DNA of 64,000 nucleotides from positions 4,920,292 to 4,984,291 of the forward strand of contig OZ005697.1 of assembly GCA_963930775.1 (NCBI GenBank), given 5' to 3'. The stretch's first letter is position 1. Every line of letters begins with the position of its first letter. The stretch is from Cliona cf. orientalis (taxonomy: Eukaryota > Porifera > Demospongiae > Clionaida > Clionaidae). Made by a program: the position numbers and the translations under genes. The notes under the pieces were generated by a model. It saw nothing but the letters and a program-made list of their open reading frames with translations. It was not told the DNA's origin and ran no database searches. Shown here in pieces: positions 15,801 to 18,087 of this stretch.

Positions 15801-18087
15801 CTGTGCTTAATATGTTTAACAGGAAATATGCACTCAATTAAAAGGGTAGGTGGAAGTGGTGTGGCCGGGGGGGGGGGGGGGGGGGGGGAGGGGGGTGCAT
15901 ATCGGTTCATCTGCACCCAATCCATAAACCAGTATACCATAAGATTTGTGACGTATAAGGCTAACAGATTAATATACCATTTTTTGACTGCAGATACTAA
16001 TACTGTATATTCCATGTAGACAGTCTTATATACAGTAGAAGTATTTGCATACTTATTACTTTCCACGGCAGTGCAGTAGGAAGTATATATCAACATAGTG
16101 GGTTAATTCCATGTGCTATTATAAGTAAAAACAATTTTATATGACCACCCATGCAATCACCTTTATTTACACTTAAAACTACCTGGAGAAACCACTGGTA
16201 GGTGTAGTAGTATAACACATTTGACAATCTCAAGGGTGCTAAGGCCAAACGACGGATGAAAAGTAAATAGAGAGCATAACATTTTCGATTATGGTAGTGT
16301 TCTAGTGGAATTATCAGACAAGGTTTGTACATGCATGCATGCAAACATTGTGTCTCTTGTAACAGTGAATGTTTTGAGATGTGATATATACCGTCTAGTG
16401 GAAGATTTTCATATGGTGCAAAAATTTGCATTTTTCATGGATAGGTTGGGTGCTGCGAAAATAAAACCATGAAACTTTAAATGCAGTGGCGTGTCCAGGA
16501 TTTGAAAGAGGGAGGTGCTAAGCCAATCGTGCACGCAAAATTTTAAGCTACACCTCCAAAAACATTGACCATGCCCCTCGCTAATGTGTTCTTGACAATA
16601 GCTGGCTAACAAAAAAGGGTGTTTTGGCCAAGTAGCAATAAGGAAGAGAGCGAATTTTAGAGACCAGTAAGTTCATTGTTGGTTCTGGCTATCTATTGTC
16701 GATTATCAGTAAAAATAGTTGCCACTGAAGATCTGGCTGTTGTGCCAGAGCTGAGGGGGGTGCTCGAGCACCCTGAGCCCCCTCTTGGACACACCACTGA
16801 AATGGGTGGAGAAAACGTGACATAAATAATACATGTATGCACAGCTGTGTGGTCTCAAAGGCATGAAATTAAAATCACAAAAAGTTCTTCTGAAGGGTTA
16901 ACATGCAATCAGTGAAACCTCCCACTGCTACCGTAGGTCGGGTTTTAATTGCGAGTATCTATTAATTGCGAATTGCGAGTTTTTCTATGTTTCGCAATTA
17001 ATAGATTCGCAAACGTTCATGCACGTATACTACAGTACGGTACGGGGTCGTCCATCGCAATTATTGGAATCGCAATTTGGCCTGACTTGACTAGAACGCA
17101 ATTATTAAATTATGCAATTAAAACCCGTCCTACGGTATAGAGATGAGCTATGAACAGTACAATAGCAGTAGAATGGAAGTGCGTATATTAAGTTTGGCTT
17201 ACCAGGCAAAATATACAATTAAATAACACAATCATACCAGTTAGTTCCTGGAATGGAGTAGTTGATCACCTTGCCAAACAAATATGGAGCTAGAGACAGA
17301 GCAGCAGAAGATATAGCAAGACAGATCATACCCAGTATCAGAAGAGGATATTCCTACAGTCCAAATAAATTAATTATGGATCGACACCTCAGACGTACAG
17401 ATTATGACTCACGGGTTTTGCAGTTAAGATAATTCTTTTGATATTGGCTTTCTTCTTGGGGGAAGCTGGTTTGTTTTCATCACCTTCTTCAAGGTTTACC
17501 AGCATCCTCAACTTCTGAACACGAATCATTCTCCTCACAAACCACAACCCAATAAGCCCTAATCCAAACTCAACCACAGGAAACGTAACAGCTATTATAC
17601 ACAGGATTTTGTACGTGATGTGCATTTCTGTTTCTTTGGATACATCAGTCCAGGTGCCTTTGACTATGCTGTGAATGATCATCCCCCCTTTGACAACAGC
17701 ATAAGCGAGTGAAACACCCGAGCAGAGCAGAATCACAACCTGGCATAGTATGGCAAGCCGTTGAATCAGTGATTTTCTTGAATCATCATGTTTCACTGAT
17801 ACCGAGAGAATGCTATTGTGCTCCAAAAAGTAAAAGCATCCAAATAGGATTAGACCGCGTACTGCTGCAATGATAACCAAATCGAAGGTGGAGTGAGTGA
17901 AAGAGAACTCCTTGATGCTGTCTTCAAGATAGAGCGAGTCACCACCAGCCAGCCATAAAGCAATGCACACCAATGAATCCACAGCCACCAGTAACATGGC
18001 AATGCTAGTGAACCGCACTAGTGGAAGGTGGGACATGGTGCGGCGTTTCAGTGTAACCGCAGTACTTGGAGCAAGTGGTTCCTCCAT
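9899..18087 (-). CDS. ABCB9: TAP-family ABC half-transporter, ABCB9/TAPL-like
   Basis: A membrane exporter of the ABCB family; TAPL (ABCB9) moves peptides into lysosomes in vertebrates. The first exon (18087-17413, start MEEPLAPS) encodes about four membrane helices resembling the TMD0 of ABCB9, including a LEDSIKEF block where human ABCB9 has LEDIRHF. Core transmembrane exons follow at 17353-17238, 13201-13140, 13090-12966, near 12890, 12614-12415, 12225-11997 and near 11939-11790; they include the [13 protein letters not shown] loop. The nucleotide-binding domain shows Walker A GPSGGGKS (near 11330), Q-loop FVSQEPVLF (near 11050), signature LSGGQKQR (near 10490), Walker B ILLLDE (near 10430) and switch histidine IIAHRLS (near 10220). 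It ends [12 protein letters not shown]. Length is about 800 residues, and all catalytic motifs look intact. Assignment to ABCB9 rather than TAP1/2 or ABCB8/10 rests on TMD0 and is less certain than the family. Confidence 0.92.
13375..13750. repeat. Long-arm foldback element, copy 1
   Basis: The arms are near-perfect inverted repeats of over 120 bp: AGTAGGGATGGCAGTGCC and ACACGAACAAGG on the left, CCTTGTTTGT and GGCACTGCCATCCCTACT on the right, around a short AT-rich loop. It lies in an ABC-transporter intron. A second copy is at about 44055-44500 and a right arm alone at about 48450-48545. It has no coding capacity. Confidence 0.85.
14190..14590. repeat. Dispersed repeat module, copy 1
   Basis: Sequence starting near GCCACGCCTCTCGTTACC and running through GACTTCACCATGGCAACAC is shared with 45085-45600, where it again lies downstream of the foldback element. 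A shorter related piece (AGTAAGTTCATTGTTGG) lies near 16670 inside another element. It is a mobile-element fragment of unknown class. Confidence 0.6.
14631..14655 (+). repeat. GAAA microsatellite
   Basis: About six tandem GAAA units, in an intron of the ABC-transporter gene. Confidence 0.9.
15867..15888 (+). repeat. 22-base G homopolymer
   Basis: An uninterrupted run of G, then AG and more G. A similar 22-base run is at 48685-48706, and C-runs lie at 4675-4690 and 21551-21568. The glycine- or proline-rich open frames across it are artefacts. The exact length is prone to assembly error. Confidence 0.85.
16388..16910. repeat. Older repeat, copy A, split by a MITE
   Basis: The flanks 16400-16483 and 16800-16910 join into one sequence matching the flanks of the MULE at 58255-58390 and 60072-60130. 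Shared landmarks in order are GGATAGGTTGGGTGCTG, TTTAAATGGG, CAGCTGT, GTGTGGTCTC and GGGTTAACATGCAA. Internal coding was not seen. Its middle is interrupted by the element at 16484-16799. Confidence 0.75.
16484..16799. mobile_element. MITE with CAGTGGCGTG ends
   Basis: The ends are inverted: CAGTGGCGTGTCCAGGATTTG on the left as CAGTGGCGTGTCCAGG, and CCTCTTGGACACACCACTG on the right. The flank AAATG is duplicated on both sides, and the related locus near 58305 has a single uninterrupted TTTAAATGGG. Similar ends occur at 19888-20230 and 51159-51493. The terminus resembles hAT elements, but a 5-bp duplication is not the usual 8 bp, so the superfamily is left open. Confidence 0.8.
16929..17137. 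repeat. Hairpin MITE with TACCGTAGG ends
   Basis: Starts TACCGTAGGTCGGGTTTTAA and ends AAAACCCGTCCTACGGTA. The inner part repeats GCAATTAATAG-type blocks in both orientations. It lies in the ABC-transporter intron just 3' of its second exon and carries no gene. Confidence 0.85.

Follow-up and report, generated by a model that had tools for sequence, protein, structure and literature searches.

In the available portions of the published accounts, related or paralogous empty sites have served as a test of transposon insertion, as for the ATon elements (PMC3422177) and for Chapaev3 (PMC4079192). Animal Mutator-like elements (MULEs) are described with target duplications of 8–11 bp, and the Phantom group with 8–10 bp or with no length indicated, in the excerpted description (PMC6446971). 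The silkworm Pegasus-like families of hAT-type MITEs have the ends CAGTGGCGT or CAGTGGCGG and 8-bp duplications in the part of that report at hand (PMC2997013), and the title of a work cited in PMC12730594 mentions a hAT5 group whose duplications are 5 bp long.

We analysed a window of 64 kb (C9:4920292-4984291) in an assembly of 216.8 Mb and 149 contigs. Two loci in this window, here called copies A and B, had been described in an earlier note as one older repeat, broken in each copy by a different transposon. We regard it as nearly certain that both hold one old, decayed, TA-ended MITE that was later hit separately at each locus, so that the two copies provide empty sites for one another. 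The features are as follows, with strand and basis.

16389..16483 (+), copy A, left part, from the TA end to the MITE (alignments; profile match 16391-16481)
16412..16413 (+), empty TA in copy A for the TA-MITE of copy B (A–B alignment, letters read)
16479..16483 (+), left target duplication AAATG of the MITE (letters read)
16484..16799 (+), 316-bp MITE with ends CAGTGG...CCACTG (recurs at at least 39 other places)
16800..16804 (+), right target duplication AAATG of the MITE (letters read)
16805..16928 (+), copy A, right part, terminus incompletely preserved (alignments; profile match 16801-16920)
16852..16859 (+), empty MULE target GTCTCAAA in copy A (A–B alignment, letters read)
16929-16930 and 17136-17137 (+), TA duplications of the TA-MITE at the right edge of copy A (letters read)
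16931..17135 (+), TA-MITE that borders copy A on the right (at least 39 other places at 94–96%)
58028..58054 (+), copy B, left end, left boundary approximate (A–B alignment)
58053-58054 and 58248-58249 (+), TA duplications of the TA-MITE of copy B (family edges)
58055..58247 (+), TA-MITE inserted in copy B (at least 39 other places; family edges in 29 loci)
58250..58389 (+), copy B, middle part (A–B alignment; profile match 58255-58390)
58307..58311 (+), empty MITE target AAATG in copy B (A–B alignment, letters read)
58382..58389 (+), left 8-bp target duplication GTCTCTAC of the MULE (letters read, sister copies)
58390..60071 (-), MULE of 1,682 bp with inverted termini of about 60 bp (frameshifted transposase that carries a FLYWCH finger)
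60072..60079 (+), right 8-bp target duplication GTCTCTAC of the MULE (letters read, sister copies)
60080..60145 (+), copy B, right part (A–B alignment; profile match 60071-60145)

The sequence blocks that the earlier note had quoted are all found at both loci in the same order. The pairwise check it proposed, with the MITE removed from A and the MULE from B, gives an alignment score of 121, above every control: the maxima are 49 for 300 first-order Markov shuffled pairs and 46 for 258 other stretches of the window (300 drawn, those near A or B dropped). With neither of these inserts excised the score is 65; it is 97 with the MITE alone excised, 68 with the MULE alone and rises to 137 once the TA-MITE of copy B is taken out too. 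The final alignment has 159 identical columns among 194 aligned, plus 55 gap columns. Identity is thus well above background, yet interrupted by numerous small indels, and on these figures the copies are old. The right ends of A and B are both degenerate.

Six copies from other parts of the genome (L033, L035, L038, L043, L046 and L047; A and B excluded) were made into a profile, which matches all four halves of the two copies with E values from 8e-18 to 1e-8. The matches lie at 16391-16481 (model 34-124) and 16801-16920 (model 123-276) in A, and at 58255-58390 (model 57-206) and 60071-60145 (model 197-279) in B. In model coordinates the halves meet at the MITE in A and at the MULE in B, as two separate breaks of one unit would predict. 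A had served as the query by which the six source copies were found, so the matches in A are not fully independent and those in B are more so. The profile gave no match at E ≤ 10 in 20 second-order shuffles and the reversed window, and the short left end of B (58028..58054) has no match of its own to it.

Nineteen further places in the genome match A, at 68–89% over the aligned stretches, some of which are short. In an alignment of 20 sequences (A, B and 18 of the 19 third-party loci, L040 being omitted), the unit starts at about TACCATATAGTGGGAAATTTTTGCATGGTGCAAAATTT and ends in roughly the inverse, AAATTTTGCACCAGC-AAAATTTCCCGCTATA...GGTA. The claim of one older repeat at both loci stands, with the amendment that the repeat is itself a MITE-like element, decayed and TA-ended. 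A and B are 42 kb apart on one contig and in the same orientation, as a segmental duplication of unique DNA might also leave them; the alignment between them ends near the repeat ends, though some 100–300 more flanking bases were offered, and with the 19 further places matching the repeat, such a duplication is a very unlikely source of the pair. We therefore treat A and B as copies of a dispersed repeat.

The boundaries given before for the MITE in copy A, 16484-16799, are exact, and its duplication AAATG is borne out; the same target is uninterrupted in copy B, as had been claimed. The element is short and non-coding, with inverted termini and many copies with constant ends. Its at least 39 other places (552 first-look candidates, 40 scored) have 78–85% identity to the window copy, with mostly near-identical edges. 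Read with their flanks, 32 of 39 have an exact 5-bp duplication, so that the duplication length is constant in the family; the other seven comprise three with no exact match, two with a three-base, one with a six-base and one with a microsatellite match. One of these seven, L100, is half of the broken copy in L116 described below. Divergence from the family consensus is 9.8% for the window copy and averages 3.5% for the 39 others, a mean biased towards well-preserved copies, as they are the best-scoring ones. At another locus, L117 (C4:3196410-3197580), about 800 bp that do not belong to the family, probably another nested insert, separate positions 165 and 179 of a copy.

For the MULE in copy B, insertion and duplication stand, as does the uninterrupted target near 16850 in copy A; the left boundary moves from 58391 to 58390, with the right one at 60071. 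The duplication had been read as the 9-bp GTCTCTACG, which is wrong: in two sister copies the element itself starts with G, which leaves the 8-bp GTCTCTAC as the duplication. The ninth matching base is the first base of the MULE, by chance equal to the next host base. Copy 2 (C9:5056042-5058821, minus strand) is 98–99% identical to the window MULE in its main pieces and reads ATCTCAGT, then GAATCGTTCCCAGAATG...GGGATGTTTCC, then ATCTCAGT; copy 3 (C1 near 24369008) is 89–95% identical, has an internal deletion and reads TATTTTTT, then GAATCATTCCCAGAATG...GGGATGTTTCC, then TATTTTTT. All three copies read thus have 8 bp, within the 8–11 bp of MULEs. At its left end the window MULE is without about six bases that the sister copies have, and its minus-strand transposase is frameshifted. 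It carries a FLYWCH finger (PF04500, E 6.8e-8, 33 bits, cut-off 23.6), a feature of several animal MULE groups and not of all MULEs. The MULE domain PF10551 is found in copy 2 only (E 1.3e-5, 26.0 bits, just under the Pfam cut-off of 27.6), with no Pfam match to it in the broken frames of the window element. Copy 2, the closest sister (98%), lies about 77 kb from the window MULE on the same contig and carries an insert of about 1 kb close to one of its ends; the proximity is possibly due to local transposition.

A third insertion, missed in the earlier note, is the TA-MITE at 58055-58247 in copy B, for which copy A keeps an empty TA. It has at least 39 other places at 81–84% (40 of 889 first-look candidates scored), and the family edges are mostly TACCGTAAATC...GATTTACGGTA in 29 other loci. 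Divergence from the consensus of this family is 15.8% in the window copy and 2.5% on average in the 29 others. The TA-MITE at 16931-17135 (1,082 candidates, 40 scored) appears to be a younger element; there is no clean empty site for it, because the terminus of A is not fully preserved there. TA duplications and inverted termini are found in both TA-MITEs and in the old repeat, and we take all three to be akin to TA-flanked MITEs of the Tc1/mariner type.

The other genomic copies bear on both sites. Among the 19 third-party loci, sorted by eye with small indels allowed, 13 read through the MITE site, three have it deleted and three do not cover it; the corresponding numbers for the MULE site are ten, five and four. 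Six of the 19 built the profile, and two (L039 and L040) resemble local duplicates. In BLAST searches of the 19 loci with both inserts, no MULE was found and no MITE lay inside a repeat copy; the single MITE, L035:2029-2271, is outside the repeat copy of that locus (1464-1789). The earlier note had named other copies with the inserts as original parts among the outcomes that would overturn its reading, and none of the 19 is of that kind. That the MITE and the MULE were parts of a longer repeat, lost by deletion from the other copies, is scarcely conceivable: several third-party copies do have deletions spanning the sites, but both elements are also found at other places, where the flanks differ and each has duplications of its own, and 13/19 and 10/19 copies read straight through.

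Later strikes by different transposons on two copies of one old repeat remain the preferred reading. On this reading, copies of the decayed, TA-ended MITE came first at both loci. The 316-bp MITE later struck copy A, with a 5-bp staggered cut duplicating AAATG; the right edge of this copy also bears a TA-MITE. In copy B the strikes were those of its TA-MITE and of the 1,682-bp FLYWCH-type Mutator-like element, the latter with an 8-bp staggered cut duplicating GTCTCTAC. Because the insertions took different points, each copy displays the pre-insertion state of the other's sites. The target duplications point to cut-and-paste insertion. The repeat is older than each insertion; the reciprocal empty sites and the order of repeat first, two insertions later, both proposed before, agree with the alignment and its controls, the profile, the duplications, which recur family-wide, and the other genomic copies. 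Nesting gives no order among the MITE, the MULE and the TA-MITE, because they lie in different copies or at separate sites. Relative ages are suggested by family divergence: the two MULE copies differ by 2%, and the TA-MITE in B and the MITE in A are 15.8% and 9.8% from their respective consensus. These measures differ in kind; they point only tentatively to the MULE as the youngest of the three.

As to the transposase behind the 5-bp MITE, the genome has at least 148 matches to the hAT dimer domain PF05699 (150 of 230 candidates scored). Among the terminus matches listed (the first places of 135, through contig C12), inspection by eye gave no PF05699 match within 5 kb, and comparison of the two sets gave no link to a hAT partner; no hAT transposase with the CAGTGG-MITE ends, the arrangement of hAT-type MITEs, was found among the matches listed. 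It is improbable that this family owes its mobility to a transposase beyond hAT and every described group. On C1, a 37.5-Mb contig, there are 91 of the 148 listed PF05699 matches, all at 13.9–37.3 Mb and none in the first 13.9 Mb; as C1 is about 17% of the assembly, this region is rich in hAT genes.

One locus, L116 (C12:4860930-4865850), was considered as the autonomous parent and rejected. Two MITE termini stand 4.87 kb apart there, giving the appearance of a parent of which the MITE is an internal deletion. The coding part, with a RING finger, a transposase core and a domain like the N-terminal one of RAG1 (PF12560, E 1.5e-7, above the cut-off), is a separate Chapaev-type element with its own CACGG...CCGTG ends and 4-bp duplication. 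L116:24-4889 (C12:4860953-4865818) is thus a MITE-family copy into which a Chapaev-type element of about 4.5 kb has inserted (4-bp duplication GATG/GATT, one mismatch; outer MITE flanks TGCTC and TGCCC), a further nested case. No MITE end near a CCGTA start was matched in a pattern search, a result that bears on no conclusion here.

Further Chapaev-type elements are present in L118 (C5:2179300-2185200, minus strand) and on C1 at about 26919386-26923941. In both, the encoded protein combines a RING-like region with an N-terminal zinc-finger region like that of RAG1, and its transposase core has the motifs GGDKGG, CLWC and EQGAES; their ends are CACGGGTGTTTCA and their 4-bp duplications CAGT (L118) and AACC (C1). 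Among the Chapaev-type elements, Pfam was applied to the L116 pieces only. Together with the FLYWCH-type MULE, these elements suggest that the genome is an animal's. Of two more relatives tried, one has the right end only and one neither end. Chapa plus RING is described for two Chapaev subgroups in the accessible part of one account (PMC4411706). In the window itself, two long open frames stand beside repeats: 25118-26056 (+) reads by eye like a protein kinase and 17389-18135 (-) like a multi-pass membrane protein.

The MITE, the MULE and the TA-MITEs all belong to kinds of DNA transposon that are already known. Nesting of such elements is ordinary, though cleanly readable here, and related empty sites are a standard means of defining insertions (PMC3422177, PMC4079192). 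Here, sequence alone fixes the boundaries and duplications of three insertions and the order of repeat then insertion, with one duplication length corrected (8 bp for the MULE); this is of use for repeat annotation of this genome and leaves general views unchanged. The 316-bp MITE shares the terminus CAGTGGCGT with the silkworm Pegasus-like family as excerpted, but has a 5-bp rather than an 8-bp duplication; in duplication length it is like the hAT5 group, as named in the reference title. By its features (FLYWCH finger, MULE domain in the 98% sister copy, 8-bp duplication), the MULE resembles the Phantom group as far as that is described in the source (PMC6446971), from which it differs in that the window copy is frameshifted and has lost about six bases of its left end. 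As in the available portions of the ATon and Chapaev3 work (PMC3422177, PMC4079192), an uninterrupted relative of the target defines boundary and duplication; unlike the cases presented there, two damaged copies within one 64-kb window are each other's empty sites, for three inserts.
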